DNA from: Halomarina halobia
GTDB taxonomy: Archaea > Halobacteriota > Halobacteria > Halobacteriales > Haloarculaceae
DNA length: 64,000 bases
NCBI RefSeq assembly: GCF_029338575.1
Contig: NZ_CP119992.1
Location: 2,790,001 to 2,854,000, forward strand
Reading direction: 5' to 3'
The translations under genes were made by a program, and so were the position numbers. Below the pieces are notes generated by a model that worked only from the letters and a program-made list of their open reading frames with translations, ran no database searches and had not been told where the DNA came from. Shown here piece after piece: positions 22,569 to 47,521 of the stretch; the stretch's first letter is position 1, and every line of letters starts with the position of its first letter.

Positions 22569-23864
22569 ATGCGGACGCGGGAGTACCCGGTGCTCGCCGA
22601 CGAGGACTGCGAGCTGATAGCGCGGCTGGCGATCGGGACGAGCGACGGCACCGCTCGCGTCCTCGGGTACCTCCTCCTACGGGACCGACAGCCGGCGTTC
22701 GCCGCCGCTCCGGCGACGCGCCTCGAGATCCAGATCGGAACGGGGGAGAGCCGGAACGCGGTGTCCGCGGCGTTGAACGCCCTCGACGAACGCGATCTCG
22801 TCATCGCCTCGACCGTCGAGCGGGACGGGCGGGGGCGGCCACCGAAGGCGTGGCGACCGCGCGCGGACGTTCCCGCCACCGTGGAGCGCGTCTACTCCCA
22901 CCACGCGGCGGATCTCCTGACTCAGGCGGCCGCCGTCGCCGCCGAGACGGGGGCCGAAGACGTACGGCCCGGAGACGGATCCGAACAGTCGGGGGGAGAC
23001 GGTTCCCTCACGGTCGGGTTGAACTGGCGTCCGAACGTCCTCCACGCGCCGCTGTTCGCCGCCGTCGAGGGGGGCGACTACGAGGACCGAGGGATGACCG
23101 TCGGGATCCGGTCGTTCGAGGGCTCCGGGCGCGCCCTCGACGCGCTGCGCGCCGGCGAGGCGGACGTGGTCGTCGCGGGCGCGGCGACCACGGTTCGAAC
23201 GCGCGCCGGCGGTGCGCCGCTCGTGCCGCTCGCGCCGCTGTTCCAGCGGGCGATGGCGGTGCTCTACACGACGAGGGACGCCTTCGGCGGTCCGCTCGAC
23301 GGCGTCGAACGGTTGCGCGGGCGTCGCATCGGGATGCCGAGGAGTTCGGAGACGGGATTGCTCGTCAGGCTGTTCCTCTCGCAGTCGGGCCTGCTCGACG
23401 AGACGACCGTCGTCGACGTCGGCGGCGAGGAGCGCGCGGCGCTCCGCTCGCGCCGCGCGGACGTCGTGACCGGGACGTTCGCCGACCCGCGGACCCTCGA
23501 AGCCGACGGCACGACGGTCGACGTCCTCCCGATCGCCGACCACTTCCCGATATACGGACCGACGCTCGTGACGACGGAGGGGACGCTCCGCGAGCGGTAC
23601 GACGACCTCGAACGGTTCCTCGCGGGCACGCTCGCCGGTCGCGAGACGGTCCTCGCGGACCCGGGCGAGGCCGTCAGGGCGGTCGTCGGGTCGTCCGCGT
23701 CCCCGGACGCGCTCGAGCGCGGCCGTCGCGACCTGACCGACGCCGTCTCCGAGTTCGGGTCGAGCAAGGCCGTTCGAAACCGCGGGTGGGGGTGGCACAC
23801 GGTCGAGGAGTGGCGGCGGTTGAACACGGCGCTCGGACACGCCGGCCTCCTCGACGTCCCATGA
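22569..23864 (+). CDS. Winged-helix regulator fused to a THI5/SsuA-type substrate-binding domain
   Basis: A 431-residue fusion without a signal peptide or lipobox. Residues about 1-110 form a winged helix (RVLGYLLLRDR; SRNAVSAALNALDERDLV as recognition helix; DGRGRPPKAW as wing, typical of archaeal regulators). Residues about 147-431 match periplasmic binding proteins of the NMT1/THI5/SsuA class (GLNWRPNVLHAPLFAA, GEADVVVAGAATTVRT, LRGRRIGMPRSS, GWGWHTVEEWRRLN). It is the first gene of an operon with an ABC ATPase and permease, overlapping by ATGA. I infer a one-component sensor that reads the transported ligand inside the cell. The ATG at 22569 follows an AT-rich AAGATATTT promoter-like patch. 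Confidence 0.85.
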   Translation: MRTREYPVLADEDCELIARLAIGTSDGTARVLGYLLLRDRQPAFAAAPATRLEIQIGTGESRNAVSAALNALDERDLVIASTVERDGRGRPPKAWRPRADVPATVERVYSHHAADLLTQAAAVAAETGAEDVRPGDGSEQSGGDGSLTVGLNWRPNVLHAPLFAAVEGGDYEDRGMTVGIRSFEGSGRALDALRAGEADVVVAGAATTVRTRAGGAPLVPLAPLFQRAMAVLYTTRDAFGGPLDGVERLRGRRIGMPRSSETGLLVRLFLSQSGLLDETTVVDVGGEERAALRSRRADVVTGTFADPRTLEADGTTVDVLPIADHFPIYGPTLVTTEGTLRERYDDLERFLAGTLAGRETVLADPGEAVRAVVGSSASPDALERGRRDLTDAVSEFGSSKAVRNRGWGWHTVEEWRRLNTALGHAGLLDVP

Positions 23865-24601
23865 TCTCGGTCGAGGACCTCGCGGTGTCGTACGGTGACG
23901 TGACGGCGATCGAGGACGTCACCCTCGACGTCGCCGCCGGTCGGTTCGTCACGGTCATCGGGCCGTCGGGCTGCGGGAAGACCACGCTCCTGCGGACGAT
24001 CGGCGGGCTCGAATCCCCGACGACCGGCGGCGTCCGGGTCGCGGGGGAACCGCCGGAGCGGGCCCAGCGGCGGGGCAACGTCGGGTTCGTGTTCCAGCAG
24101 CACACGCTCCTGCCGTGGAAGACCGCGCTCGAGAACGTCACGTTCCTCCGGCGGCTCGCGGGGAAGCCCTCGAAGCCGGACGCCGCGCGCGAGTTGCTCG
24201 ACCGCGTCGGGCTCGCGGGGTTCGAGGGGGCGTACCCGGCGACGCTGTCGGGCGGGATGCGCCAGCGAGTCGCCATCGCCCGCGCGCTCCACCTCGGAGC
24301 GGACGTGCTGCTGATGGACGAGCCGTTCGGCGAACTCGACGAACTCACCCGGGAGACGATGGGCATCGAGGTCAGCCGCGTCTGGCGCGAGGAGGCGAAG
24401 ACGGTCGTGTTCGTGACCCACAGCATCCCCGAGGCGGTCCTCCTCGGCGATCGGTGCGTCGTCGTCCGGGGGAGCCCCGGGCGCGTGGTCGAGACGTTCG
24501 ACGTCGACCTCCCCCGACCGCGCGATCGATCGGTGCTCGAATCGCCGGCGTTCCAGCGCCGGGTAGCGGCCGTCCGCGCCGCGCTCACCGACGACCGATG
24601 A
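23861..24601 (+). CDS. ABC transporter ATP-binding protein (SsuB/TauB/ThiZ class)
   Basis: A 246-residue ABC ATPase for import of a nitrate-, sulfonate- or pyrimidine-type ligand. Walker A is GPSGCGKTT (near 36-44), the Q-loop is in VFQQHTLLPWKT, the signature is LSGGMRQRVAIARAL, Walker B is VLLMDEPFGELDE and the switch His is in VFVTHSIPEA. PFGELDELTRE and LLPWKT are typical of this subfamily. Start and stop codons overlap both neighbours (ATGA at 23861 and 24598), giving a coupled regulator-ATPase-permease set. Confidence 0.92.
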   Translation: MISVEDLAVSYGDVTAIEDVTLDVAAGRFVTVIGPSGCGKTTLLRTIGGLESPTTGGVRVAGEPPERAQRRGNVGFVFQQHTLLPWKTALENVTFLRRLAGKPSKPDAARELLDRVGLAGFEGAYPATLSGGMRQRVAIARALHLGADVLLMDEPFGELDELTRETMGIEVSRVWREEAKTVVFVTHSIPEAVLLGDRCVVVRGSPGRVVETFDVDLPRPRDRSVLESPAFQRRVAAVRAALTDDR

Positions 24602-25395
24602 GCGTCGCCGACCGGGTCCCCGCCGCCGACCTGACGCTCCCGGTCGTCGCGCTCGGGGTCGGCGTCCTGCTGTGGTGGGTCGCGTCCGCGGCGCTCGCGC
24701 TCCCGCAGTATCTCCTCCCGTCGCCGGGAAGCGTCGGCGCGCGGCTCGTCGACAGCCCGGAACTGTACGCGGTCAACGCGTGGATTACCCTGCGGCGCGT
24801 CCTCGTCGGCGGCGCGGCGGGCGTCGCGAGCGGGGCCGTCCTGGCGGTGCTCGTCGCGCACGCGCCGCTGTTGCGCCGGACCCTGGTTCCGTACCTGGTG
24901 GCGGCTCGCGTCCTGCCGAAGATCGCCGTCGCGCCGGTGTTGCTCATCTACCTAGGAACGGGATCGGCGACGGGTATCGCGTTCGTGGCGCTCGTCGCCT
25001 TCTTCCCGATGGTCGTGAGCACGGTCGCCGGGCTAGAGAGCGTCCCGGTGGGGCAGCTCGACCTGTTCGCGTCGGTCGACGCCGGTCCGTTCGCGACGTT
25101 CGTCCACCTGCGCCTCCCGCACGCGCTCCCCGACGCCTTCGCGGGCGTGAAGCAGTCGACGACGCTGTCGGTCGTCGGCGCGATCGTCGCCGAGTGGGTC
25201 GTCTCGACCGACGGGCTCGGCGCGCTGATCCTGGTCGCGCTCGAGAACGTCCGGACGGACATCACGCTCGCGGCGCTGATCGTTCTGATCCTGGAGGGGC
25301 TCGCGCTCTACGGGGTCGTCGTCGCCGTCGAGCGGCGCGTGCTGTGGGATCACCGCGATCGCGATCGCCGCTCGATCCAGCCGGGGACGAGGTAG
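24598..25395 (+). CDS. ABC transporter permease (SsuC/ThiX class)
   Basis: A 265-residue inner permease with about six membrane segments. The conserved cytoplasmic EAA-like loop is LDLFASVDAGPFATFVHLRLPHALPDAFAGVKQ (key elements P-H-A-L-P and G-V-K), and LLPSPGSVGARLVD near the N-terminus is typical of the family. The start ATG at 24598 overlaps the ATPase stop. Its last 46 bases overlap, antisense, the end of the convergent second permease. Confidence 0.9.
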   Translation: MSVADRVPAADLTLPVVALGVGVLLWWVASAALALPQYLLPSPGSVGARLVDSPELYAVNAWITLRRVLVGGAAGVASGAVLAVLVAHAPLLRRTLVPYLVAARVLPKIAVAPVLLIYLGTGSATGIAFVALVAFFPMVVSTVAGLESVPVGQLDLFASVDAGPFATFVHLRLPHALPDAFAGVKQSTTLSVVGAIVAEWVVSTDGLGALILVALENVRTDITLAALIVLILEGLALYGVVVAVERRVLWDHRDRDRRSIQPGTR

Positions 25396-26159
25396 AACGC
25401 GAGCCCGAGCGCGACGAGCACGGACAGCGCGGCGTACGTCCGCGCGGTCTGCAGGTTCGCGGCCGTGACGAACACACGGTATCCCAGCCCGGCGGTGAGG
25501 GTGACGAACTCCGCGACCACGGTCCCGATGACCGCCAGCGCCGCGGCGAGTTTGACGCCTGCGAAGACGCTCGGCGCGGCCGCGGGAACGCGGATCCGGA
25601 GGAAGGTCCGCCGGGGGGAGGCCGCGACGGACCGGGCCAGGTCGAGGTACTCCCGGGGGACGGCGCGCAGGCCGCCGGCGGAGGCGACGGCGACCGGGAA
25701 CTGCGTCATCGTCGTCACCAGCAGCGCCCGGGGGAGTATCCCGCGTCCGAACCAGAGAAACAGCAGCGGCGCGACGGCGACGAGCGGCGCGATGCGGAGC
25801 CCGACGACGTACGGGCGCGCGACCGCTTCGACGGTCCGGGAGGTCGTCATCCCGAACGCGACGACGAGGCCGACGCACACGCCGCCGGCGAGTCCGAGCG
25901 CCGCCGTGACGCCGGTGACGAGCGCGTCCCCGAGCAGCGTCGGCCAGGCGTCGACGAGCGCCGCGCCGACGTCGAGCGGCGAGGGGAGGACGACCGTCGG
26001 GACGGCGAACAGGACCGTCGCGAGTTGCCACGCGACGAGCAGGAGCGCGAGCAGGGCGAGCGCGGGTCGATACTGACGAACGCGGGCTCGGACGCGGCGC
26101 GCGCCGTTCGGTCGCGACCGGTTACCGCCCTCGCCCTGCTCGCGCCGGTGTCCGGTCAT
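25350..26159 (-). CDS. Second ABC transporter permease (SsuC/ThiX class)
   Basis: A 269-residue permease with a basic N-terminal extension (about 30 residues) and about six membrane segments. VLPSPLDVGAALVDAWP and the cytoplasmic loop LDLARSVAASPRRTF, ending in P-A-A-A-P and G-V-K-L, are family signatures. It is transcribed after the substrate-binding protein at 26163-27242 (3-base gap) and converges on the plus-strand permease. It may share the single ATPase with it, either as a heterodimer or as a separate importer. Confidence 0.9.
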   Translation of the reverse strand: MTGHRREQGEGGNRSRPNGARRVRARVRQYRPALALLALLLVAWQLATVLFAVPTVVLPSPLDVGAALVDAWPTLLGDALVTGVTAALGLAGGVCVGLVVAFGMTTSRTVEAVARPYVVGLRIAPLVAVAPLLFLWFGRGILPRALLVTTMTQFPVAVASAGGLRAVPREYLDLARSVAASPRRTFLRIRVPAAAPSVFAGVKLAAALAVIGTVVAEFVTLTAGLGYRVFVTAANLQTARTYAALSVLVALGLAFYLVPGWIERRSRSR

Positions 26160-26162
26160 GCC

Positions 26163-27242
26163 TCACGAGTTCGAGACCGCCTCGGCGTACGAGGAGACGT
26201 ACTCGTACTCCGCGTCGATGTACTCGTTGGTCCACACCTCGTCCGGGTCGACGCGCCCGCCGAGCAGGTCCGCGTCGTCCAGCGCCTCGTGCATCGTCCG
26301 CCACGGCTCCGGCGCGCTCCGCCCCCACCCCTTCGATCGAACCGTCTCCGAGAGCATGAACCCGGAGCTCATCAGCCGCCACTTGTCCCGCTGCTGCTCC
26401 CGGGACTCGCCCAGCACCGGCACCGCGTCGACGAGGTGGTCGGTCGCCGCCTCGGGGTGTCGATGCGCCCACGCGGCCCCCCGGGCCGTGGCCCGGAGGA
26501 ACGCGCGGACCGTCCCGGGGTGCTCGTCGGCGAACGTCCCACTCGTGGCGAGGACGTGTCCGTAGGAGGGGATCGCGGACGCGACGCGGACGGAGTCGGT
26601 CGCGTACCCCTGGTGTCGCGCGTCGACGACGTCGCCGAACACGCCGCCCGCGACGTCGATCTCCCCGGAGAGCAACTGCTGGACCGTGTCGTACCCCGTG
26701 TCGACCATCTCGACGCTGTCCAGGACGCCCTCGCGTTCGAGCAGGAGCGTGGAGAGCAGCCCGACCATCCCCGGCCCGGTGCCGAGGGTCTTCCCCGCGA
26801 GCTGCCCGACGGCCGAGAACTCCGCCCCGAAGTTCTCGCGGACGGTGAACAGCACCACTGGACTCCGTTGCATCACGACGCCGACCGAGAGCGGCGAGAC
26901 GTCGCGGCTGTTGACGTTGAGGACCTGGTCGGCGCTCGTCACGGCGAACGCCGCGTTCCCGAGGCCGGCCTGTTTGGCCGCGAAGTCCGATCCCTGCCCG
27001 CTCTCGATCTTCGACACCGAGAGCCCCTGCTCTTCGTAGAACCCCTCCGCCTTCGCGGCGTAGTACGGGACGTGGAGGCCGCTCGGCTTCCAGTTCAGCA
27101 GTAGCGAGACGTCGGTCGCGCTCGGACGGTCCGAGGCGGTCGCCGTCCGATCGTTCGAGCCGCCCGTCGTCAGCTCGCCCACGCACCCGGCACCCACCGC
27201 GAGTCCCGCCGCCGAGAGAAACGCCCGCCGTGACTGTCCCAT
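26163..27242 (-). CDS. ABC transporter substrate-binding lipoprotein (THI5/SsuA/ThiY class)
   Basis: A 359-residue exported binding protein. The Tat signal SRRAFLSAAGLAVGAGC ends in a lipobox with Cys near residue 20, so it is probably membrane-anchored. The NMT1-like fold shows LLLNWKPSGLHVPYYAAKAEGFYEEQGL, then FAVTSADQVL and a C-terminal DPDEVWTNEYIDAE. The first block matches the fusion regulator's binding domain, which supports a shared ligand class. Known members bind hydroxymethylpyrimidine precursors, taurine or sulfonates; the sequence alone does not decide. Confidence 0.9.
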   Translation of the reverse strand: MGQSRRAFLSAAGLAVGAGCVGELTTGGSNDRTATASDRPSATDVSLLLNWKPSGLHVPYYAAKAEGFYEEQGLSVSKIESGQGSDFAAKQAGLGNAAFAVTSADQVLNVNSRDVSPLSVGVVMQRSPVVLFTVRENFGAEFSAVGQLAGKTLGTGPGMVGLLSTLLLEREGVLDSVEMVDTGYDTVQQLLSGEIDVAGGVFGDVVDARHQGYATDSVRVASAIPSYGHVLATSGTFADEHPGTVRAFLRATARGAAWAHRHPEAATDHLVDAVPVLGESREQQRDKWRLMSSGFMLSETVRSKGWGRSAPEPWRTMHEALDDADLLGGRVDPDEVWTNEYIDAEYEYVSSYAEAVSNS

Positions 27243-28053: not shown

Positions 28054-28223
28054 CGCACCGCGACGTACCACACAGTACCGTCGGTCCCGCGCGGGCACTC
28101 CCGGCGTCGAATCGGACGCGCCGCCGGCCGACCCGCCCGACGTCGGCGTTCGTGTATTCGCGTTCAACGTATTCGAGTACCTAGTTACCAAGGTACATAC
28201 CGGTGGACTTCGATTCGGTGTGC

Positions 28224-29291: not shown

Positions 29292-29346
29292 GCGCCCGGA
29301 CGACGGTTCCCCGAGGCTCCGCGTACTCGCCCTCGACGACGCGGAT

Positions 29347-30393: not shown

Positions 30394-30565
30394 GACTGGA
30401 GCAGTCACGCGATACCGGTATATACCATTCGGCGACCGCCGCGCGCTCCCCGTAACCGCCTCGTCGGTCGGGGCGGTCGCCGGAACTCGGCGACCCGAGG
30501 CATGCGGGCTGTGACCTACGAACACGCTTATGGTTCGACGGAGTGTATCCGCGTCCACGCTGACT

Positions 30566-31408: not shown

Positions 31409-31516
31409 GCGACGCGCCGGTCGCCCAGCGTCTCCGCGAGGACCGGGCGCGTGCGCCAGACGGGCTATCGCCGGGGGACACGGATGACTAAGTACGTCCC
31501 TGACGATAGTGAACGC

Positions 31517-32002
31517 ATGACGTCCGACCAGCAACTCCCGAACATCAAGGTGGGGCGGGACGCCGCGCGCGACGACGAGTGGGAGGGGGAGGAGGAGGAG
31601 ACCGCCACGGTGGAGTACCTCAACTACCGGGTGCTCGAGCGACGCGGCTGGGAGGTGGAGGACGACGACCTCTTCGAGAAGGCGGCCGCGGCCGACCTGG
31701 ACGACGCCGACCACGGGACGCTCGAGGTCGGCGAGTATCGGTACATCCTCGACGCCGCCGAGGACGCCGGCTACGCCTGGCCGTTCGAGTGCCGGGCCGC
31801 CTCGTGTGCGAACTGCTGCGCCTTCCTCGTGGAGGGCGAGATCGAGATGGACATGAACCTCTTTCTGACCGACGAGGAGGTCGAGGAGATGGGACTCCGG
31901 TTGACCTGCGTGGGGACGCCCGGGTCGGACGAGATCAAACTCGTCTACAACGTCAGGAGCCACGACTACCTTCAGACGGTCGTCGGAAAACGCGAAGTCT
32001 GA
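31517..32002 (+). CDS. Halophile-type 2Fe-2S ferredoxin
   Basis: A 161-residue plant-type ferredoxin, the main soluble electron carrier of haloarchaea (for example for 2-oxoacid oxidoreductases and possibly AORs). Three cluster ligands are in [13 protein letters not shown] and the fourth in LTCVGTP. The halophilic acidic insert lies near the N-terminus ([21 protein letters not shown]). The N-terminus is about 30 residues longer than typical and very acidic. An in-frame ATG at 31484 is an alternative start. The extra Cys in CANCC is unusual. Confidence 0.92.
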
Positions 32003-32588: not shown

Positions 32589-34301
32589 TCAGGCCGCCAT
32601 CGAGAAGATGAGGAGCCTGTCGTCGCGCTTCCCCCGGCGGAGCCAGCCGCTGCCGCCGACCTGGATGGCGATGTACTGCTTCTCGGTGCCGGGGTCGTAC
32701 CAGCTCATGGGGCTGGCGGAGAGCGGTGCGTCGCCGCAGTCGAACTCCCAGACGCGCTCGCCCGTCTCGCCGTCGTAGGCGATCAGGTCGCCGTTCTGCG
32801 TGCCGGCGAACACGAGGCCGGTCGCGGTCGCCATCGAACCGCCCCAGAGGTAGGTGTCGCTGTCGATCCAGTCGCGCCAGACGCGCTCGCCCGTCGCCGG
32901 ATCGATCGCGACGATGGAGGCGATGTGGCCGTTGTACTCGTCGGGCATCGCCTCGGTCTCGTCCTCGAGGATGCCGCCCCAGTACTTCTTGCCCTCCTCG
33001 AACTCCTCGAACCGCCACCACGCCTCCTGGGCGTTGTTGTGCATCTTGTAGTAGATGAGACGGGTCTCGGGGCTGTAGGCCGGGGGTTGCCAGTCGTTGC
33101 CGCCCATCCCGCCGGGCATGAACGTCCCGCGCCTGCCCTCGTCGATGTGCGGGATCATCCGGAACATGTTGAGCTGCTGGACGCCCGGCTCGCTCCGTTC
33201 GATGAGTTCGCCGGTCTCGGCGTCGACCGTGTACGCCCAGCCCGTCTTCCCGGCGTCGACGACGACGTCCTTGGTCTGGTTGCGGTGGGCGATCTCGAGG
33301 TCCCTGATGAACACGCGGGGACAGGCCGAGTCGTAGTCCCAGACGTCGTGGGGCGACTCCTGGTGGAACCAGAGCCGTTCGCCGGTCTCGGCGTCGAGAC
33401 ACAGCGTGCCGCAGGTGTTGCGGTTCGGGCCCGGTCGGACCGACCCGTCGAAGTCGGGGCCGGGGTTACCGATCGGCAGGTACAGCCGGTTTCGCTCCTC
33501 GTCCAGCGTGGCCGTCATCCAGTTGGTGCCGGCCGCCTGGTTGATGCTCTCCCCGACCCACTCCTCCTCCGGGCAGGTGTGGGTGAACCACAGTTGCTCG
33601 CCCGTCTCGGCGTCGAGGGCGGTGTGGAATCCGCGCACGCCGTACTCGCCGCCCGCGCTGCCCGTGTACAGCGTCCCGTCGTGGACGATGGGTGCCCACG
33701 TCGCGGAGTAGCCCCGCTCGTGGTCGGCGGTGCTGGTGTACCACACCTCCTCGCCGGTGTAGCGGTCGAGCGCGACGACCCCCGAGTCGAGGGTGCACAT
33801 GAATATCTTGTCCTTCCACACGGCGACGCCGCGGTTGTTGTCGTCACAGCAGAGCACCACGTCCGACGGGACGGCGTACGTGTAGCTCCACAGCACGTCG
33901 CCCGCGCGCGGATCGATGGCCTTCACGTGGTTCGGCCCGTTCGACTGGTACATCACGGGCGGATCGCCCGGTATCACCAGCGGCGTCCCCTCCATGCTCG
34001 ACCCGGAACCGACCCGCATCTCGTGCTCCAGTTCGAGGTCGTCGACGTTCTCGGGCGTGATGACGTCGGCTGTCGTGTAGCGGTGCTGTTCGTAGTTACC
34101 GCCGTACATCAACCAACACTCCGCGTTCTCGCCGGAGTTGCTCAGCATCTCCTGGGTGACGTCCTCCCGCGGGATGCGGTCGATGTCGTGCTGGTGGGTG
34201 ACCGACTTCTCGGGTGCGCCGAGCACCCGATAGCCGTTATCAGTCTCTCGAACGACGGTGTCCTGTGCGGCCTGTACGGCCCTGTCTTCCTCTATTGACA
34301 T
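32589..34301 (-). CDS. PQQ-dependent (quinoprotein) dehydrogenase, no signal peptide
   Basis: A 570-residue beta-propeller of the methanol/ethanol dehydrogenase type, with repeated D-x-E/R-T-G-E-x-x-W tryptophan-docking motifs. Key residues are present: the vicinal disulfide CC at 151-152, the metal ligand region AGGEYGVRG with E219, YLPIGNPGPDF with N279 and the catalytic Asp in VWDYD at 321-324. The second Asp (D324) is the position that marks lanthanide-dependent XoxF/PedH enzymes. The N-terminus MSIEEDRAVQAAQ has no Sec or Tat signal, although characterised enzymes are periplasmic. It is preceded by a 305-residue protein with a 6-base gap. No PQQ biosynthesis genes are in the window. Confidence 0.85.
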   Translation of the reverse strand: MSIEEDRAVQAAQDTVVRETDNGYRVLGAPEKSVTHQHDIDRIPREDVTQEMLSNSGENAECWLMYGGNYEQHRYTTADVITPENVDDLELEHEMRVGSGSSMEGTPLVIPGDPPVMYQSNGPNHVKAIDPRAGDVLWSYTYAVPSDVVLCCDDNNRGVAVWKDKIFMCTLDSGVVALDRYTGEEVWYTSTADHERGYSATWAPIVHDGTLYTGSAGGEYGVRGFHTALDAETGEQLWFTHTCPEEEWVGESINQAAGTNWMTATLDEERNRLYLPIGNPGPDFDGSVRPGPNRNTCGTLCLDAETGERLWFHQESPHDVWDYDSACPRVFIRDLEIAHRNQTKDVVVDAGKTGWAYTVDAETGELIERSEPGVQQLNMFRMIPHIDEGRRGTFMPGGMGGNDWQPPAYSPETRLIYYKMHNNAQEAWWRFEEFEEGKKYWGGILEDETEAMPDEYNGHIASIVAIDPATGERVWRDWIDSDTYLWGGSMATATGLVFAGTQNGDLIAYDGETGERVWEFDCGDAPLSASPMSWYDPGTEKQYIAIQVGGSGWLRRGKRDDRLLIFSMAA

Positions 34302-34307: not shown

Positions 34308-35225
34308 TTACCTCGCTTCGCTCGGTGCGCGCATCTCCTCCGTAATGTGATACATGTCGCTGCAGATGTCCTCCTGGTTGACGATCAGGATCGCGGCGCT
34401 GGCGGTCAGCGCCGCGGACAGCTGGCTGTCCGTGATCGCCGCTTCGGTCGCGTCAGCGACCTCGAGCGCGGCCATCGTCAACAGGTATAGCCCCCCCAGC
34501 ATCGCCTTGATGTCCCAGAACCCGTCGTCGAGGATCCGTTCGGTGATCAGGACTCTCTTCTGCCAGAGGTGGACGTCGAGCGTCCGGATCCACAGCAGCG
34601 CGCCGCCCATCGCCCGCTGGTGCAGCGGCGGGACGAACTCGACGTTGAACTCGACGCCCTCGGGGATCTCCGCGGTCGGGACCCACCGCGAGAGGCGAGT
34701 GTTGTTGTTGACGATGTCCATGACCAGAACGGTCTGCTCCCGGTCGTCGAATCCGATCTCGGCGAGCGCCGAGGTCAGCTCGTCCGCGCCGATCAGCTCG
34801 TGGGCGGTATCCCGGATGTACTCCGGTTCGAACCGCGACGCGTTGGCGTCGACGCTCTCGAAGAAGTCCACCTCCTGGAGGTGATCGTACACCCGCCATC
34901 CGGGTTCGACGAGCTCCCGATACAGCACCTCCGGCTCCCTCTCACCCCGTGGAATCCCTCGCTCGCGTACCTCGGGAAGGCGGTCGATCTGCGCCGCCAG
35001 ATCCGACAGGGCGGACCGGAGGAGGTCGACGTCGAGCCGTCCTTCCAGGTCGCTACGGATGGCCTCGCCCAGGCTGGCGAACTCCGGGGTGGTATCCGCG
35101 TCGACCGCCGTCTTCATCTCCGAGAGCGTCAGCGTCTCGCCGCCGACCGCGTCGCTTATCCCGAGTGTCCTCGCCAGCCGTTCCTGATCTTCCGTAGTGA
35201 TGTGAGGTGTGCTTACATTGGCCAT
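34308..35225 (-). CDS. Uncharacterized protein preceding the PQQ dehydrogenase
   Basis: A 305-residue soluble, mostly helical protein. It has an acidic N-terminal region (1-120), a central region with DREQTVLVMDIVNNNTRLSRWVP and a helical C-terminus (LLTMAALEVADATEAAITDSQLSAAL) ending in SDMYHITEEM. No Cys-rich, nucleotide-binding or membrane motifs are seen. The ATG at 35225 is chosen because the upstream part of the frame is AT-rich leader. It is the first gene of the probable operon with the quinoprotein and may be its partner or chaperone. I do not recognise the family. Confidence 0.65.
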   Translation of the reverse strand: MANVSTPHITTEDQERLARTLGISDAVGGETLTLSEMKTAVDADTTPEFASLGEAIRSDLEGRLDVDLLRSALSDLAAQIDRLPEVRERGIPRGEREPEVLYRELVEPGWRVYDHLQEVDFFESVDANASRFEPEYIRDTAHELIGADELTSALAEIGFDDREQTVLVMDIVNNNTRLSRWVPTAEIPEGVEFNVEFVPPLHQRAMGGALLWIRTLDVHLWQKRVLITERILDDGFWDIKAMLGGLYLLTMAALEVADATEAAITDSQLSAALTASAAILIVNQEDICSDMYHITEEMRAPSEAR

Positions 35226-39239: not shown

Positions 39240-39506
39240 TCACCACTCGGTGAGCCACTCCGGCGAGAGTCGGGCGCGACAGCCGACGCAGTAGACGGTG
39301 GAGACGTCGTTCTCGGCGTCGCAGTGCGGACAGGCCACGCTCACGTCGCGGGACCACCACGCGATCGACGGGGGAGCCGCGTCGGCCGCGCCGTCCTCGA
39401 TGCGGTCCGCGCCGCCGGCGGGACGCAGAACCGTCCGGCAGCCCCAGCCGACCGCGAACAGGAGGGCGGCCGCGGACAGGACGACGAACGCGGTCGACGG
39501 CGTCAT
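39240..39506 (-). CDS. Membrane-anchored zinc-ribbon protein
   Basis: An 88-residue protein with one N-terminal membrane segment (about 6-24: AFVVLSAAALLFAVGWGC), an Asp/Ala-rich linker and a zinc ribbon CPHCDAEN, YCVGC. The ATG at 39506 overlaps the stop of the upstream THI5-like gene by four bases (ATGA), so it is translated as the fourth and last gene of that operon. The cysteine pairs and coupling suggest a dedicated partner of the three binding-protein-fold gene products. No relative of known function is recognised. Confidence 0.75.
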   Translation of the reverse strand: MTPSTAFVVLSAAALLFAVGWGCRTVLRPAGGADRIEDGAADAAPPSIAWWSRDVSVACPHCDAENDVSTVYCVGCRARLSPEWLTEW

Positions 39507-40489
39507 CCCTCCGTCACCCTCCGCCCTCGGCCGATGCGGTCGGCGTACCGACCGATGACGTCGGCGTCGCCGTCGAGGTACTCGTTCGTCCACGCCGCGT
39601 CGGGATCGATCGGCCCGTCGAGCAGGTCGGTCGCGGAGAGCATCGTCCCCAGCCGACGCCACCGATCGCCGTCGTGGGCACCCCAGCCGGCCGTCCGGAC
39701 GTGGTCGGTGAACTGTAGCTTCTCGGCGGCGACCTCGAACTTGCGCGTCTCGATGGGTCGGCGGCGTTCGAGCGTCGCGTTGCGAGCGACGAGGGCTTCG
39801 ATCGCCGCCTCCGGATCGTCGGTCGCCGCCGCCCAGCCCCGCGCCGTCGCCCGCAGGAACGAGCGAACGGCGTCGGCGTTCTCGGACGCGAACGTCCGGT
39901 TCGTCGCGAGCGTCATCCCGTAGACGCCCAGGTAGTCGCCGACGTGGAGTTCGTCGGCCGCGCGGTCGTACTCGCGTTCGAGTTCGACCCCGTTCGTGAC
40001 GACGCCGACCGCGGCGTCGACCGTCCCGTCGAGGAGCTTGTGCTGGACGCGGTGGTGCGTGTTCGGATCCACCGGCAGCAGTTCCACGCGGTCGCGGACG
40101 CCGACGTTCTCGAAGAGCTGCGCCGCGAGGATGCGCGTCTTCGTCGCCGAGGGGGCGACGGTCCGACCGGCCAGCTGTTCGGGACGTTCGAGGGGTTCGC
40201 CGAAGACGTCCCTGAGGGTGTAGATGGCCGCCGGCGTCTTCTTCGTCACCGCGGCCACGGCGAGCGGTTCGAACCCCTCGCTCTGCTTGGCGAGGACGGC
40301 GCTCGCCCCGGCGAGCGCGACGTCCGCACGGCCGCGGGCGGCCTGCTCGGCCGCGAACGGCGACCCGTGTCCCTCGACGAACGCCACGTCGATCCCCTCT
40401 TCCTCGTAGAACCCCCGCGACCGGGCGAGGAAGTACGGGGCCTGAAACCCGTTGGGCTCCCAGTTGAGCTGGAAGGTGACGGTCTTCAC
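39503..40489 (-). CDS. THI5/NMT1-SsuA-fold protein without signal peptide (third of three)
   Basis: A 328-residue protein starting at GTG 40489 directly with the fold: VTFQLNWEPNGFQAPYFLARS, FYEEEGIDVAF, ADVALAGASAVL, then DPDAAWTNEYLDGDA. The N-terminal LNW and C-terminal WTNEY blocks match the exported lipoprotein at 26163-27242, but no Sec/Tat signal or lipobox is present. Fungal THI5, a cytosolic HMP-P synthase, shares this fold, but its Cys-rich motif is not seen here. GTGA and ATGA overlaps couple it to both neighbours. Confidence 0.83.
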   Translation of the reverse strand: MKTVTFQLNWEPNGFQAPYFLARSRGFYEEEGIDVAFVEGHGSPFAAEQAARGRADVALAGASAVLAKQSEGFEPLAVAAVTKKTPAAIYTLRDVFGEPLERPEQLAGRTVAPSATKTRILAAQLFENVGVRDRVELLPVDPNTHHRVQHKLLDGTVDAAVGVVTNGVELEREYDRAADELHVGDYLGVYGMTLATNRTFASENADAVRSFLRATARGWAAATDDPEAAIEALVARNATLERRRPIETRKFEVAAEKLQFTDHVRTAGWGAHDGDRWRRLGTMLSATDLLDGPIDPDAAWTNEYLDGDADVIGRYADRIGRGRRVTEG

Positions 40490-41475
40490 GGTTCGACCTC
40501 CGGGCGGAACGTCCCCTCCGGGACGTGGTCGACGCCGAGCGCGTCCGCGCCGGCGACCTCCAGCAGGTGGTCGAACAGCCGCTCCATCCCCTCGATCGTC
40601 TCCGTGTTCCAGTCCCGAACGACCATGTCCCGCCACCCGTCGCGGACCGCGCGGACGACGGCCGGGTCGTCGTACGTCATCAGCGTCTCGCCGATCTCCT
40701 CCCAGAGGTCGTCCTCGGCGACGAGTCGATCGACGACGTCGCGGTAGGCTCCCCTGAAGCGCCGCACCGTCTCTGGGTGCTCCGCGAGGAACGACTCGCT
40801 CGTCAGGAACGTCGAGATCGGGAGCCGGTCGTCGGTCCCCGAGAGGCGCTGGACCAGCTCGGCCATCGGCAGCACTTCCCGGTACGGCCCGCGCTCGGTT
40901 ATCTCGGGGACGATGGGCCAGAACTGGAGGATCGCGTCGACCTCGCCGTCGTACAGCAGCTCCGTCAGGCCGACCTTGGAGCCGGCCTCGACCGGCGTGG
41001 CCTCGACGTCGGGGTCGAAGCCGTGGTACTCCCGGCAGGCGGCCCGCGTCAGGATCCAGTTCTTGTCGAGCCGGCGGACGACGCCGATTCGGTGGTCCGG
41101 AAGGTCGGTCAGCCCCTCGATGTCGGTGTCGTCGAGGGCGACGAGCCCGCCGACGGTCCGGCCGTAGGGGTGGATCGCGACGATGGCGGCCCCCTCGCTT
41201 CGCTCGCGGGCCGTCGAGATGTAGTCGATGTCGATGAGGTCGGCGTCGCCGTCCTGGAGGCGGGCCTCGACGGTCTCCATGCCGCCCTCGAGCTCGTCGG
41301 AGACGAGTCGCACGTCGAGGTGAAACCCGTGTTCGCGGTCCAGCCCGAGCCGCTTGATGGCGTAGAGCATGTACCGCGGGCTGCCGTTGTGCTCGAAGCG
41401 GGCGCGCATCACCGGCAGGTCCGCCGGGTCGTCGTGGACGGCGTCGAGCGCCGCCTGCTGGTCGGCGATGCTCAT
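40486..41475 (-). CDS. SsuA/THI5-fold protein without signal peptide (second of three)
   Basis: A 329-residue periplasmic-binding-protein-fold polypeptide. The start MSIADQQAALDAVHDDP has no export signal. RARFEHNGSPRYMLYAIKR, DADLIDIDYISTARE, HRIGVVRRLDKNWILTRAA and VDAILQFWPIVPEIT are recognisable lobe-1/lobe-2 strands of the type II binding-protein fold. It is the most diverged of the three. The ATG at 41475 overlaps the upstream stop and the next gene begins at the overlapping GTG 40489. A transport role would need another exported component; an intracellular binding or enzymatic role is inferred. Confidence 0.75.
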   Translation of the reverse strand: MSIADQQAALDAVHDDPADLPVMRARFEHNGSPRYMLYAIKRLGLDREHGFHLDVRLVSDELEGGMETVEARLQDGDADLIDIDYISTARERSEGAAIVAIHPYGRTVGGLVALDDTDIEGLTDLPDHRIGVVRRLDKNWILTRAACREYHGFDPDVEATPVEAGSKVGLTELLYDGEVDAILQFWPIVPEITERGPYREVLPMAELVQRLSGTDDRLPISTFLTSESFLAEHPETVRRFRGAYRDVVDRLVAEDDLWEEIGETLMTYDDPAVVRAVRDGWRDMVVRDWNTETIEGMERLFDHLLEVAGADALGVDHVPEGTFRPEVEP

Positions 41476-42368
41476 CGCGCTGGCCCCACGATGGCGTCGA
41501 CGTCGGCGCTCCCGTCGAGGAGTTGTCGGCGCTTCATCCACTCGAGGTGCGCCCCGAGTTCCGCCCGGTCGGCCGGTTCGGGCGGCTCGTAGGTCGGCAC
41601 CTCGATGCTCGCGAGCAGCGCCCGGCGGTCGACGCCCTCGAACAGGTCGGGCGCGACGTCGGCGTCCGCGTCGAGCATGGCGAGGTACTCCTCGCGGAAG
41701 GCGTCGGGGTCGGCGTTGATCTCCCGAACCGCCCGCTCGTACGCTCGCATGAACGCGTCGAGCGCCTCGCCGTCCAGCCCGTCCGCGGCGACGATGCCCA
41801 CGTGGTTCTCGAACCGGAGGACGGCCCTGAACCCGAGGTGCTCGGCGAGCGTGCTCTGGGGCTCCAGCAGGGAGACCGCCTCCACCTCGCCGTCGCGGAG
41901 CGCCCGTAGTCGGTCGGTCGGCATCCCGTGGTGTTCGAGCGCGACCGCCTCGGGGGGCACGTGTTCCTCGAGCGCCCGGATGACGGTGTACTCCTGGCCG
42001 GTCCGGCGGTTCACGCCCACGGGCACGCCAGCGAGGTCGGCCGGCCCCTCGACGTCGCTCTCCGGCCGGACGTAGACGGTGTACGGCTGGTCGGCGAACG
42101 TCCCAGCGGCGACGACGCGACCGTCGCCCATGTCCCACGTCCGCTTTATCGACTCCCACTTGCAAACCGGATAGAGGTCGATCCCGTGGTCGCCGGTCAG
42201 CGTCTCCTCCGCCGGGATGTACTTCCAGTCGACGCTCTCGCGGTCGCGCTCTACGACCTCCACGTCGAGTCCCTCGTCCGCGAAGTACCCTCGCTCGCTC
42301 GCCACGCGCTGGGGGAGCATGAACGAGAACGGGAGGTGGAACAGACGAAGCTTGCCATTGTTTGGCAT
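41472..42368 (-). CDS. SsuA/THI5-fold protein without signal peptide (first of three)
   Basis: A 298-residue protein heading a four-gene operon. MPNNGKLRLFHLPFSFMLPQRVASERGYFADEGLDVEVV is the start of the fold (key stretch F-M-L-P-Q and R-G-Y-F), with GVNRRTGQEYTVIRALE, DRLRALRDGEVEAVSLLEPQ and FRAVLRFENHVGIVAADGLD. No signal peptide, lipobox or membrane segment. No permease or ATPase lies nearby; the only ABC set in the window is 15 kb away. The promoter region 42369-42454 is shared with the divergent cupin. Confidence 0.77.
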   Translation of the reverse strand: MPNNGKLRLFHLPFSFMLPQRVASERGYFADEGLDVEVVERDRESVDWKYIPAEETLTGDHGIDLYPVCKWESIKRTWDMGDGRVVAAGTFADQPYTVYVRPESDVEGPADLAGVPVGVNRRTGQEYTVIRALEEHVPPEAVALEHHGMPTDRLRALRDGEVEAVSLLEPQSTLAEHLGFRAVLRFENHVGIVAADGLDGEALDAFMRAYERAVREINADPDAFREEYLAMLDADADVAPDLFEGVDRRALLASIEVPTYEPPEPADRAELGAHLEWMKRRQLLDGSADVDAIVGPAR

Positions 42369-42454: not shown

Positions 42455-42832
42455 ATGGATCACGTTAGCGAGAACGACCGCAACCTGACCGAGGTCGCCG
42501 AGGGCGTCTATCTGGCCGATCTCGCGGGGAGCGAACGGGCGTCGATGAAGTTCTGGCGGGTCGAACCGGGCGCGACGCTCCCCTCGCACCGCCACCACAA
42601 CGAACAGATCGGCTTCGTTATCAGCGGGACGCTGACCGCGATCCTCGAGGACGGGAAGCGCCCGCTCGAACCGGGGGATTCGTACGCGTTTTCGAGCGAG
42701 GAGCTCCACGGAGCGGAGAACCGCGGCGACGAACCGGCCGTCGGGATCGGCGTCCTCAGCCCGCCGCGCGACGAGCCGCGGTGGGCGACGAAGCGCCCGG
42801 AACGGACGCCGCCCGCGGGACCGAACGACTGA
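42455..42832 (+). CDS. Cupin domain protein
   Basis: A 125-residue single-domain cupin. Motif 1 is LPSHRHHNEQIGFVISGTL (H, H, E metal ligands), and motif 2 is LEPGDSYAFSSEELHGAEN (final His ligand). The tail is Pro/Arg-rich and likely disordered. Metal-dependent cupins act as isomerases, dioxygenases or sensors; activity cannot be told. It is divergent from the THI5-like operon and its stop is 6 bases from the convergent AOR stop, so it sits inside this accessory cluster. Confidence 0.87.
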   Translation: MDHVSENDRNLTEVAEGVYLADLAGSERASMKFWRVEPGATLPSHRHHNEQIGFVISGTLTAILEDGKRPLEPGDSYAFSSEELHGAENRGDEPAVGIGVLSPPRDEPRWATKRPERTPPAGPND

Positions 42833-42838: not shown

Positions 42839-44500
42839 TCACTCCTCGATCCGTTCGGACGGGACCGTCCCGTCCGCGTTCCACCCCCGCGCCTCGTAGT
42901 AGGCGTCGAGCGCCGCCTCGAAGTCGGGGAGGTCGTAGGGGAGCGCGTCGTCCGCCCGGTCGAACCCGCGGCGGTTGTTGAAGTGCCGCTCGAGTTCGAC
43001 GATCCGAGCGCCGACGGCGAGCAGATCCTCGGACTCCGCGTCGAGCAGCCCCGCCAGGCGTTCCGGCGTCACCACGTCGCGCGAGAACCGACAGACGATA
43101 GCCGAATCGAGCACCGCGTTGTGGTTCTCCTTCTCGACTAACCGCGACGGCTTCCCGTCGAAGCCCTCCCGGTCGAGCGCCGCCTCGGGGGAGACGAGCG
43201 GATACTCGTGGACGTACATGCTCCCGTAGAGGTGATCGGCGCCGCGGTTCGCGGTGGCGAACGAGAGGCCCTGGCCGTTGAGCGTCCGGCCGTCGTGGGC
43301 GGCGAACTCCATGCCCTTGACCGTCCAGTTCTCGACGCCTAATTCGTCCGCACAGCGGTCGATCCCCTCCGCGAGCAGGTCGCCGACGCCCTCCCGGTAG
43401 GCGATGTCCTCGACGAGTCGGTGGACGAGATCGGCGTTCCCGAACTCGTCCTCGCTCGCCAGGTAGGCCGCGACGACGTCCCCGCAGGAGATGGTGTCCA
43501 CGCCGAGCTGATCGCACAGCTCGTTCGACCGCATGACGGCGGTCAGGTCGTCGATCCCCGCGTTCGAGCCGAAGGCCATCACCGTCTCGTACTCCGGTCC
43601 CTCCGTCTCGAGGCCGCTCGCCTCGTCGCGCGTCGGCAGCTTGCACGCGAACGCGCACGCGGAGCAGGTGCCCTTCCTGTACTTGTGCTCCTCCACCCGA
43701 TCCCCGCTGATCCCCTCGACCCCCTCGAACGAGAGTTCCGAGAAGTACCGCGTCGGGAGCGCCCCGACCTGATCGGCGTACGTCGTCAGTCCCGCCGTCC
43801 CCTGACGCTTCATGACGCTGTCGGAGGTGGCGGCCTCGCGATGGATCTCCGTCGCGACGGCGGGAAGGTCGAGCGAACGTTCGACGCTCCCGTCGAAGGT
43901 GAGGAACTTGACGTTCTTCGATCCGAGGACCGCGCCGAGGCCGCCGCGGCCGAACGCCCGCGACTCGCTGGTCATGATCGAGGCGAACCGCACCCGGTTC
44001 TCGCCGGCCGGACCGACGACGGCGGTGTGCTCGGGGCCGAGGTCCCGGCGTTCGGCCACGTGCTCGGTGACCTCCGAGACGACGGCCCCCGCCAACTCGG
44101 GGACGGCCTCGACCTCGACGCCCTCGTCGGTGACGTGGATCCCCACGAGCTCGTCGCTCGTCCCCGTGACCTCCACGACCGCGTAGCCCGTCGCGGCGAA
44201 GTTCCGCGAGAGGAACCCCCCGGCGTTCGAGGAGAGCAGCCCGTCGGTCAGCGGCGAGAGCCCCGTACACGACATCCGGCCCGTGAAACTCGTCCGGGAG
44301 GTCTGCATCGGCCCGGTCGCGAAGAACAGTCGATTGTCGGGGCCGAAGGGATCGGCGTCGAACGGGATCCGGTCGTGGGCGAGGCGGGTGCCGACGCCGC
44401 GGCCACCGACGTACGCCGCGAGCACGTCGTCGATCGCCGTCGCCTCGGTCGTCCCCGCCCCCACGTCCACGGTCAGTAGTCGGCCCCGGGCGTGTAGCAT
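42839..44500 (-). CDS. Aldehyde ferredoxin oxidoreductase family protein (short form)
   Basis: A 553-residue tungstopterin oxidoreductase that in known members oxidises aldehydes to acids with ferredoxin. The N-terminal pterin-binding domain has GGRGVGTRLAHD and SRAFGRGGLGAVLGSKNVK. The 4Fe-4S ligands are C279, C282 and C286 (CSACAFAC) and a distal Cys in SAIVCRFSRD. ATANRGADHLYG-type and FNNRRGFDRADD blocks are typical of the second half. I chose the ATG at 44500 (MLHARGRLLTVDVG) over one ten codons upstream. The paralogue at 45593 is longer, so the two probably have different substrates. Confidence 0.9.
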   Translation of the reverse strand: MLHARGRLLTVDVGAGTTEATAIDDVLAAYVGGRGVGTRLAHDRIPFDADPFGPDNRLFFATGPMQTSRTSFTGRMSCTGLSPLTDGLLSSNAGGFLSRNFAATGYAVVEVTGTSDELVGIHVTDEGVEVEAVPELAGAVVSEVTEHVAERRDLGPEHTAVVGPAGENRVRFASIMTSESRAFGRGGLGAVLGSKNVKFLTFDGSVERSLDLPAVATEIHREAATSDSVMKRQGTAGLTTYADQVGALPTRYFSELSFEGVEGISGDRVEEHKYRKGTCSACAFACKLPTRDEASGLETEGPEYETVMAFGSNAGIDDLTAVMRSNELCDQLGVDTISCGDVVAAYLASEDEFGNADLVHRLVEDIAYREGVGDLLAEGIDRCADELGVENWTVKGMEFAAHDGRTLNGQGLSFATANRGADHLYGSMYVHEYPLVSPEAALDREGFDGKPSRLVEKENHNAVLDSAIVCRFSRDVVTPERLAGLLDAESEDLLAVGARIVELERHFNNRRGFDRADDALPYDLPDFEAALDAYYEARGWNADGTVPSERIEE

Positions 44501-44614
44501 CAGGGTCGAGAGAGCGACCGCCGACCCCATAAAGCTGTGCTAGATATTCACCGCCACGGATCGGTCCCTCTCGCCCGGGGAAAGTACTTTACGTCGACGC
44601 GCGGGCCTCTCCGC

Positions 44615-45043
44615 ATGGACGCCGTCGATCACATCAACGTCGACGTCGACGACCTCGGGGCGTGTTTCCGGTTCTACCGCGACGTGCTCGATCTCGATCT
44701 GCTCCGGCCGCCCGAGGACTTCCGGGGGGCACACGCGATGTTCCGGGCCGGCGACACCGTGGTGACGCTGGCGGAGACGGGGCGCGCGGAGAACTGGGAC
44801 GAGGCGGGCCTCGATCACCCCCTCGACAAGGCGCACGTCGCGTTCGCGACCGACCGCGAGGCGTACGAGGCGCTGATCGCGGAACTCGACGGGCAGTTCC
44901 CCAGGCAGGGCCCCTACGACTGGGGGGAGTTCGAGGGGTTCTACTTCCTCGATCCGGACGGCAATCTGCTCGAGGTGGTCACCTACCAGTCGCCGCCCGC
45001 GGGCGAGGAGCGCGAACTCCTCACCCACGACGACGTCGAGTGA
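44615..45043 (+). CDS. VOC (glyoxalase/dioxygenase-fold) protein
   Basis: A 142-residue vicinal-oxygen-chelate protein: MDAVDHINVDVDDLGACFRFYRDVLDL starts the first beta-alpha-beta-beta-beta unit with metal-ligand His in DHIN. KAHVAFATDREAYEAL and GFYFLDPDGNLLEVV start and end the second, with His and Glu ligand positions present. The substrate could be a glyoxal-type adduct, an epoxide or an aromatic diol; none is favoured. It lies between the two AOR genes on the plus strand. The ATG at 44615 is preferred over an upstream in-frame start with basic residues. Confidence 0.87.
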   Translation: MDAVDHINVDVDDLGACFRFYRDVLDLDLLRPPEDFRGAHAMFRAGDTVVTLAETGRAENWDEAGLDHPLDKAHVAFATDREAYEALIAELDGQFPRQGPYDWGEFEGFYFLDPDGNLLEVVTYQSPPAGEERELLTHDDVE

Positions 45044-45592: not shown

Positions 45593-47521
45593 ATGACTGA
45601 ACTCGGCGGCTTCCAAGACCACGTGGCGCGCGTCGACCTGTCCTCGGGCGACGTGAACTACGAGAGCATAGACGAGGAGGACGCGAAGAACTTCATCGGG
45701 GCGCGCGGCCTCGGCGTGAAGTACGTCTTCGACCAGGGGCCGGACGTGGACCCGCTCGGGCCGGACAACCTGCTCGCGTTCACGAACGGTCCCCTCACGG
45801 GAACGCAGGTGGTGATGAGCGGGCGCATCGCCGTCTGCACGAAATCACCGCTCACCGGCACCGTAACCGACTCCCACCACGGGGGCTGGTCCGGTGCGCG
45901 CCTGAAGTGGGCCGGCTTCGACGGCCTGCTGTTCGAGGGGCAGTCCGAGGAGCCCGTCTACGCCGTCGTCGAGAACGGCGAGGTCGAACTCCGGGACGCG
46001 TCGCACCTCTGGGGCAAGGGCGTCCACGAGACCCGCGATCAGATCGAGGAGGAGGTCGAGGGGTCCTACGGCAAGAACCTCTCGATCATGGCCATCGGTC
46101 CGGGCGGCGAGAACCTGGTGCGCTACGCCTGCATCGTGAACGAGGACGACCGCGCCTCCGGACGCGGCGGCACGGGCTGCGTGATGGGCTCGAAGAACCT
46201 GAAGGCCGTCGTGGTGAAGTCCACGACGAAGATGCCGAAGCCGGCGGACCCGGAGACCTTCCGCAAGGGCCACCAGCAGGCCATGCAGGTCATCCAGGAG
46301 TCGGAGGTCACCGCGCCCAACGAGGGCGGCCTCTCGCTGTACGGGACGAACGTCCTCATGAACGTCACCGAGGAGATGGACGGCCTCCCGGTGAAAAACG
46401 GGAGGTACACCTCGACGCACAGCTACGAGGATGCCGAGGGCGTCGATATCGACGCCGAACGCATCTCGGGCGAGAACGTCCGCGAGAACATCCTCGTGGA
46501 CGAGCCGACCTGCCACTCCTGTCCGGTCGCCTGCAAGAAGGAGGTCGAGGTCTCCACCAGCCACAAGGGCGAGGACATGAACGTCCGGATGGAGTCCTAC
46601 GAGTACGAGTCGGCGTACGCGCTCGGCCCGAACTCCGGACACGACGACCGCGACCGGATCGCGGTCATGATCGACCGATGTAACGACCTCGGGATGGACA
46701 CCATCGAGACGGGGAACATCCTCGCCATGGCGATGGAGATGACCGAGGAGGGCAAGTTCGACGAGCTCGGCGAGGGGATCGACTGGGGCGACGTCGAGGA
46801 GATGATCGACCTCATCGACGCCATCGGCCACCGCGACGGCGACCTCGCCGACCACCTCGCGGGCGGCGCGAACCACCTCTCCGAGGAGTTCGGCGCGCGG
46901 GAGAACTCCCTCGACGTGAAGGGCCAGACCATCCCGGCGTACGACCCGCGCTGCATGAAGGGCATGGGCATCGGCTACGCCACCTCGAACCGCGGGGCCT
47001 GCCACCTGCGCGGCTACACGCCCGCCGCCGAGATCCTCGGCATCCCCGAGAAGGTCGACCCCTACGAGTGGCGCGGCAAGGGCGAACTCTGCGCCACCTT
47101 CCAGGACATGCACGCCATCAGCGACTCCTTCGACATCTGCAAGTTCAACGCCTTCGCGGAGGGCGTCGAGGAGTACGTCCTGCAGTACAACGGCATGACC
47201 GGCCTCGACGTGAGCGAGGAGGACCTCATGCAGGCCGGCGAGCGCGTCTACAACCTCGAGCGGTACTACAACAACCTCAACGGGTTCGACGCGGACGACG
47301 ACTCCCTGCCCGCGCGCTTCCTCGAGGGCGGCATCCCCGGTCAGGGCGCGAGCGAGGGGCAGTACTGCGAACTCGAGGAGATGAAGGAGGAGTACTACGA
47401 CCACCGCGGCTGGGTCGACGGCGTGGTCAGCGAGGAGAAACTCGAGGAGCTCGGCATCGACTTCGGCCCCGGCACGGGCGTCAGCCTGAGCGACAGCAGC
47501 CCCGCCCCGGCGGACGACTAG
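45593..47521 (+). CDS. aor: Aldehyde ferredoxin oxidoreductase (long form)
   Basis: A 642-residue tungsten enzyme of the AOR family. The N-terminal half shows GARGLGVKYVFDQGP, TGTVTDSHHGGWSGARLKWAG and RASGRGGTGCVMGSKNLK (pterin and Mg contacts). The 4Fe-4S ligands are C307, C310 and C314 (CHSCPVAC) plus Cys in SFDICKFNAF. The C-terminus is acidic and ends in a Ser/Pro-rich tail, typical of halophiles. Electrons would pass to ferredoxin, which is encoded at 31517. A strong hairpin/T-run follows the stop. Confidence 0.93.
   Translation: MTELGGFQDHVARVDLSSGDVNYESIDEEDAKNFIGARGLGVKYVFDQGPDVDPLGPDNLLAFTNGPLTGTQVVMSGRIAVCTKSPLTGTVTDSHHGGWSGARLKWAGFDGLLFEGQSEEPVYAVVENGEVELRDASHLWGKGVHETRDQIEEEVEGSYGKNLSIMAIGPGGENLVRYACIVNEDDRASGRGGTGCVMGSKNLKAVVVKSTTKMPKPADPETFRKGHQQAMQVIQESEVTAPNEGGLSLYGTNVLMNVTEEMDGLPVKNGRYTSTHSYEDAEGVDIDAERISGENVRENILVDEPTCHSCPVACKKEVEVSTSHKGEDMNVRMESYEYESAYALGPNSGHDDRDRIAVMIDRCNDLGMDTIETGNILAMAMEMTEEGKFDELGEGIDWGDVEEMIDLIDAIGHRDGDLADHLAGGANHLSEEFGARENSLDVKGQTIPAYDPRCMKGMGIGYATSNRGACHLRGYTPAAEILGIPEKVDPYEWRGKGELCATFQDMHAISDSFDICKFNAFAEGVEEYVLQYNGMTGLDVSEEDLMQAGERVYNLERYYNNLNGFDADDDSLPARFLEGGIPGQGASEGQYCELEEMKEEYYDHRGWVDGVVSEEKLEELGIDFGPGTGVSLSDSSPAPADD

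Follow-up and report, generated by a model that had tools for sequence, protein, structure and literature searches.

Signal-less binding-protein-fold genes linked to a predicted cytoplasmic quinoprotein alcohol dehydrogenase in Halomarina halobia and other haloarchaea

The pyrroloquinoline quinone (PQQ) alcohol dehydrogenases of methylotrophs have been described as periplasmic (PMC7391723). Also periplasmic are XoxJ, MxaJ, and PedG, which have a substrate-binding protein (SBP) fold, are required for quinoprotein function, and have been proposed to aid PQQ or metal insertion (PMC12997753, PMC7391723), and the Methylorubrum extorquens protein PqqT, which binds PQQ with a Kd of 50 nM (PMC12124388). 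We analyzed a 64,000-nucleotide stretch of the Halomarina halobia genome (contig NZ_CP119992.1, positions 2,790,001 to 2,854,000; here called the window) that carries a minus-strand operon of four genes, A, B, C, and D. The first three encode binding-protein-fold proteins without export signals, B being a PqqT homologue, and a gene for a signal-less PQQ-type quinoprotein alcohol dehydrogenase (QADH) lies 6 kb away. Both the PqqT homologue and the dehydrogenase had been missed by an initial annotation of this DNA. We describe how these genes compare with the bacterial systems and propose that A-B-C may serve to acquire and load the cofactor of QADH within the cytoplasm.

The A-B-C-D operon and its described relatives

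The operon consists of the following genes.
41472..42368, minus strand: A, a 298-amino-acid signal-less NMT1-fold protein with the motif YP-x-CKWES, encoded first in the operon
40486..41475, minus strand: B, a 329-amino-acid signal-less PqqT homologue with the motif LDKNWIL
39503..40489, minus strand: C, 328 amino acids, without a signal and resembling ThiY/THI5; the importer SBP and the helix-turn-helix (HTH)-NMT1 regulator described below are its paralogues
39240..39506, minus strand: D, a small membrane zinc-ribbon protein; accessory, outside the conserved module

As the initial annotation had stated, each gene overlapped the next by 4 bases, with ATGA joining the A stop to the B start (41475-41472), GTGA the B stop to the C start (40489-40486), and ATGA the C stop to the D start (39506-39503). 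Its assignment of A, B, and C to the binding-protein fold was also borne out, since all three matched the Pfam family NMT1/THI5 (PF09084) over the curated cutoff, with 42.4, 38.5, and 117.1 bits, respectively. None of the three carried an extra domain besides the NMT1 fold, and none matched an amino-acid SBP family in Pfam, which places them outside the XoxJ/MxaJ family. The AlphaFold 2 model of A (predicted local distance difference test score [pLDDT] of 91) had a generic SBP/Thi5 fold, with a template modeling (TM) score of approximately 0.6, and no close solved relative was found for it in the structure comparison; its polar motifs were strongly conserved. D was 88 amino acids long, with a hydrophobic N-terminal stretch and a CPHC...CVGC ribbon, and matched no Pfam family over the cutoff.

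The absence of export signals, another claim of the initial annotation, proved to be real and conserved. No lipobox or hydrophobic signal stretch was present at the N termini of 62 to 71 orthologues of each of A, B, and C, including all 71 sequences of B. The median 14-residue hydropathy peak was 0.99 for A, -0.23 for B, and 0.01 for C, compared to 1.92 for the neighboring importer lipoprotein SBP which, unlike A-B-C, carries a twin-arginine translocation (Tat) motif and a lipobox. The bacterial and halococcal relatives of A likewise start without a signal. A, B, and C are predicted to be cytoplasmic binding-protein-fold proteins.

A profile of B matched PDB entries 9b1u, 9b1v, and 9ooz (E value of 4.5e-31), which are titled as PqqT with PQQ; according to a review, 9B1V contains PqqT together with PQQ and Gd (PMC12828617). 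When modeled with AlphaFold (pLDDT 87.5), B aligned to the PqqT structures with TM scores of 0.82/0.90 (TMt 0.90 to 9b1v), the next folds reaching approximately 0.6 to 0.77. By profile and by model, PqqT is the closest relative of B in sequence and predicted fold. The two were approximately 27 to 28% identical over nearly the whole length and had in common the motifs PYxxTxGxLV, LDKNWIL-x-RA, and GE-x-DAxL, LDKNWIL being invariant in B. The lysine of its DKNW segment may correspond to Lys142 of PqqT, if a 27-residue numbering offset is assumed. Unlike PqqT, B has neither a signal peptide nor its own permease, and it comes after a second SBP-fold gene and usually before a third. The closest bacterial relatives of B adjoin PQQ alcohol dehydrogenases and have their own permease and ATPase. 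The relative in Azospirillum lipoferum (L101) lies beside a PQQ alcohol dehydrogenase, and on pSymB of S. meliloti (L095), open reading frames (ORFs) read as XoxF, a c-type cytochrome, and an XoxJ-like SBP are followed by a B relative with a permease and an ATPase.

The conserved unit across Halobacteria

When 85,000 species genomes were scanned with A, 26 haloarchaeal loci were returned, and a class-wide search with a B alignment identified 54 strong genomes among 392 Halobacteria. After removal of duplicates, 64 distinct loci were compared. The cupin, A, and B genes were each found in all 64, C in 62, a VOC-family gene in 60, and the aldehyde:ferredoxin oxidoreductase (AOR) gene AOR1 in 18. 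In the window, the genes accompanying A-B-C are as follows.
42455..42832, plus strand: divergent cupin (Cupin_2, 64 bits) with conserved H45, H47, and H85; 64/64 loci
44618..45043, plus strand: VOC/glyoxalase-fold protein, a regular operon companion in 60/64 loci; its start is not fixed and may lie upstream, at 44537
42839..44530, minus strand: AOR1, AOR family (PF01314/PF02730); 18/64 loci

The A-B-C arrangement is not due to chance, since the gene order with its divergent cupin was retained in 62 to 64 of the 64 loci. The B and C genes overlapped in 53 loci and A and B in 20, and the orthologues were 60 to 87% identical, with many invariant residues. D, by comparison, was present in 3 of the 64 loci, including the window, with a more sensitive search adding L099 and L052; it occurred solely beside A-B-C and in few close relatives (L099, L036, L052, and L009). 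Because of this narrow distribution D is not a member of the conserved unit, which consists of the cupin, A-B-C, and the VOC protein. The four-gene set of the initial annotation is thus conserved across Halobacteria in its A-B-C part and not in D, and its suggestion that the zinc ribbon tethers the set to the membrane does not fit a protein confined to close relatives.

The region between the cupin gene and A measured 81 to 161 bp across the loci and contained two TATA-like boxes back to back, and these two genes are predicted to share a short bidirectional promoter. A shared operator is not claimed: inverted repeats in this region scored 7.86 of 11, barely higher than the 7.20 of shuffled sequences. 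The B gene was duplicated in tandem (A-B-B'-C) in seven loci (L019, L051, L057, L062, L063, L069, and L071). Signal-less relatives of A were also encountered in Geminicoccaceae (L096, 6776-7687), Mesorhizobium (L097, 6800-7714), and Halococcus (L098, 6992-7909), and QADH was not in the retrieved flanks of any of these three. They suggest that cytosolic NMT1-fold proteins with a C-[KE]-W motif form a wider family.

The quinoprotein dehydrogenase, the importer, and the cofactor source

QADH and the genes linked to it in the window are as follows.
32589..34301, minus strand: QADH, a quinoprotein alcohol dehydrogenase (PF01011, 205 bits) that lacks a signal and has vicinal cysteines and a lanthanide-type WDYD motif
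34308..35223, minus strand: hyp34, an uncharacterized protein directly upstream of QADH, its start taken as the ATG of MANVST
31484..32002, plus strand: 2Fe-2S ferredoxin (PF00111), linked to QADH in several loci
45593..47521, plus strand: AOR2, a second AOR-family protein, also beside QADH in loci without A-B-C

The PDB matches of QADH were PedH and XoxF, and it aligned with XoxF, PedH, and ExaF over the whole propeller, sharing the vicinal cysteine pair, the GGE and GNP segments, and the D-x-D within WDYD. D-x-D was present in QADH and the aligned PedH and XoxF, while two aligned quinohemoprotein alcohol dehydrogenases had D-x-T. QADH therefore combines the propeller, the cysteine pair, the metal-ligand Glu, Asn, and Asp, and the extra D-x-D aspartate of the lanthanide type. 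In contrast to XoxF, PedH, and ExaF, no haloarchaeal QADH had a signal peptide, whereas the Azospirillum control did, and in place of a c-type cytochrome, hyp34 and the ferredoxin were found nearby. We predict that QADH is probably a cytoplasmic, lanthanide-type PQQ alcohol dehydrogenase. The hyp34 gene adjoined every haloarchaeal QADH examined and matched no Pfam family; its product may serve QADH as a subunit, as a chaperone, or in electron transfer, and the ferredoxin is a possible electron acceptor. Two sodium/calcium-exchanger family genes (28203-30657) lie between the importer and QADH, and such genes were near QADH in several genomes, where they possibly provide metal. A second quinoprotein clade (G340, G047, G175, G303, and others), approximately 38 to 45% identical to QADH, was also noted, in some Natrialbaceae-like genomes near HTH-NMT1 regulators.

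According to the initial annotation, no ABC permease or ATPase was near the operon. This was wrong at the scale of the window, in which a complete NMT1-type importer occupies positions 22569-27242.
22569..23864, plus strand: RegSBP, a winged-helix-like N-terminal region fused to an NMT1 domain (PF09084, 91.7 bits)
23861..24601, plus strand: ABC importer ATPase (PF00005)
24598..25374, plus strand: ABC importer permease 1 (PF00528)
25350..26159, minus strand: ABC importer permease 2 (PF00528)
26163..27242, minus strand: SBPper, the substrate-binding lipoprotein with Tat motif and lipobox (PF09084 match at 26445-27074)

ABC permeases always beside the orthologues had been named there as a sign against an intracellular set, and the importer does speak on that side; it has its own lipoprotein SBP, however, so the signal-less A-B-C proteins are not its SBPs. 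The importer SBP was found in 47 genomes, 45 of which also had QADH, and the HTH-NMT1 fusion in 59 of the 392 genomes, 56 of them with QADH; where A-B-C was absent, the importer and the fusion directly adjoined QADH-hyp34, and in many genomes the fusion was next to the QADH operon. C recurred as the second match in the importer SBP search (35 to 41% identity), and some C proteins were weaker matches in the search with the fusion. The N-terminal region of RegSBP had no HTH match in Pfam. RegSBP is a probable cytosolic one-component sensor of the importer ligand; an intracellular ligand sensor of this fold has a precedent in the CmpC-type cytosolic NMT1 regulatory domain (PDB 9uak), from which RegSBP differs by its probable DNA-binding region.

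QADH was detected in 51 of the 54 genomes with A-B-C versus 16 of the 338 others (Fisher's P = 6e-46) and, counted by genus, in 15 of 16 genera with A-B-C versus 5 of 70 others (P = 1e-11); these P values overstate the significance because the genomes are related, but the pattern still spans six family labels. QADH was within the retrieved flank of approximately 26 of the 64 A-B-C loci. Of the 67 QADH genomes, 29 had both A-B-C and the importer, 22 A-B-C only, 16 the importer only, and none lacked both (P = 7e-4). The 22 importer-less genomes had few strong NMT1 proteins besides A-B-C and fusion-like regulators. None of 39 distinct module genomes yielded canonical PqqC, the same model scoring 428 bits in S. 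meliloti pSymB. If QADH uses PQQ, this points to import or to another way of making it. No PqqE over the cutoff was found in 10 genomes, a search that tells no more than this, as generic radical-SAM proteins match everywhere.

Proposed role and alternatives

Homology, the absence of export signals, gene linkage, co-occurrence, and the lack of canonical PqqC form the basis of the reading that we hold, with evenly divided confidence: A-B-C, the cupin, and the VOC protein are a cytoplasmic module that acquires cofactor and loads it into QADH, a cytoplasmic quinoprotein of the PQQ type that is probably lanthanide binding. From these observations we infer the ligand (PQQ), the function in loading, what A and C contribute, and the path of the electrons. 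B would be a binder of the quinone cofactor, like PqqT in the bacterial periplasm; C would bind a ligand common to the importer SBP and the HTH-NMT1 sensor, either the cofactor or a precursor; and A would be a third cytosolic member, ligand binding or enzymatic. Together they would capture, finish, or pass the cofactor to apo-QADH in the cytosol. QADH would then oxidize an alcohol to an aldehyde, which would in turn be oxidized by the linked AOR-family enzymes, ferredoxin being a plausible carrier. The comparison with PqqT and XoxJ/MxaJ/PedG suggests that A-B-C may do in the cytosol the job that these proteins do in the bacterial periplasm. Like A-B-C, XoxJ, MxaJ, and PedG have the binding-protein fold and are encoded together with a quinoprotein dehydrogenase; they differ in being periplasmic and described as amino-acid-type SBPs, whereas A-B-C is a cytosolic NMT1-type trio with a cupin and a VOC protein. 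By this analogy, A-B-C would be binding-protein partners of a quinoprotein that had been moved into the cytoplasm and multiplied.

The initial annotation had considered the set intracellular and without a described counterpart, and we too found no published description of it in the literature searched. Nor was a haloarchaeal PQQ dehydrogenase or quinoprotein system described in the accessible literature searched, which left subscription papers mostly outside, so that a description elsewhere is possible. A cytoplasmic lanthanide-type quinoprotein, conserved in genomes that lack canonical PqqC, raises the question of where its cofactor originates, as well as those of archaeal lanthanide use inside the cell and of binding-protein-fold proteins that load or make a cofactor. 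Since cultivable strains of Natrinema, Haloterrigena, and Halomarina carry these genes, such questions can be tested.

Several points weigh against a loading module. The ligands of A, B, and C are predicted, and that of B may differ from PQQ, given an identity to PqqT of only 27 to 28% in a family that holds uncharacterized SBPs; C resembles thiamine-pyrimidine-binding SBPs in sequence. Sixteen QADH genomes lacked A-B-C and three A-B-C genomes had no detected QADH, and so neither strictly needs the other. If the module were a simple downstream loader, it should accompany the importer, yet 22 genomes had A-B-C without it and 16 the reverse. Finally, the constancy of the cupin and VOC protein suggests chemistry beyond binding.

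A doubtful but serious alternative is that A-B-C and its two companions, the cupin and VOC protein, act enzymatically and synthesize or convert the quinone cofactor (or something closely analogous) in the cell instead of its being imported. MqnA/MqnD, Thi5, and 4,5-dihydroxyphthalate decarboxylase are all enzymes with the binding-protein fold. The missing PqqC and PqqE would be accounted for; every QADH genome has either the importer or A-B-C, as would be the case for alternative supply routes; the two proteins that go with the trio are likely metalloproteins; and the conserved polar motifs of A and its signal-less bacterial relatives also fit. B, however, looks like a binder, other importers could supply the 22 importer-less genomes, and phylogenetic relatedness inflates the either-or pattern. 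In addition, the known route to PQQ begins with a peptide, and neither such a precursor nor a maturase was found here. We consider unlikely the further idea that archaea use the cupin, A-B-C, and VOC protein, with enzymes of the binding-protein fold, to make or remodel the quinone cofactor of QADH in place of the peptide-based PQQ pathway and interchangeably with the importer.

It is more improbable that A-B-C bind, convert, or sense an organic substrate, i.e., an alcohol, aldehyde, or acid passing through QADH or AOR. AOR1 or AOR2 and VOC genes do adjoin A-B-C, and fold relatives include decarboxylases and the desulfinase DszB. Against this, the closest relatives of B are PQQ binders or belong to xox-type clusters, and AOR1 was present in only 18 of the 64 loci.

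The initial annotation had connected the set with hydroxymethylpyrimidine phosphate synthesis of the THI5 kind and with MqnA/MqnD, and a thiamine or menaquinone branch pathway of either kind now seems very improbable. In its favor are the 117-bit NMT1/THI5 match of C and the matches of C to ThiY and Thi5 chains in the PDB, which place them in a common superfamily. When C was aligned to the PDB structure, however, the pyridoxal phosphate-binding Lys62 and donor His66 of Thi5 were replaced by Ala60 and Ala64, and in B the corresponding residues were Ile83 and Ser87. In a weak profile-profile comparison, this region of A aligned poorly, with an invariant Lys70 nearby and no histidine after it. 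The CCCFC motif of THI5 was absent from A, B, and C, and C lacks the signal that ThiY has. The MqnA/MqnD family PF02621 scored 12.6 bits on B against a cutoff of 26 and did not match A or C, and no thiamine pyrophosphate riboswitch or other Rfam match was found in the window. ThiC, moreover, is present in the same genome; it was read as two adjacent pieces (G000 C1 2310774-2312029), perhaps through a frameshift or an assembly error.

That A-B-C are ordinary ABC transporter SBPs with overlooked signal peptides, as their database annotation and the importer in the window might imply, or decaying paralogues, is hardly credible given the signal-less orthologues, the separate SBP of the importer, the frequent starts of B and C inside the preceding gene, and the identity and invariant residues retained among orthologues.

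Two further features were noted downstream in the window. A ThiS/MoaD-family protein is encoded at 56786-57067, and a large ORF with a Tat signal at 59944-63186, beside a ferredoxin-like ORF, resembles a molybdopterin oxidoreductase by reading of its sequence.

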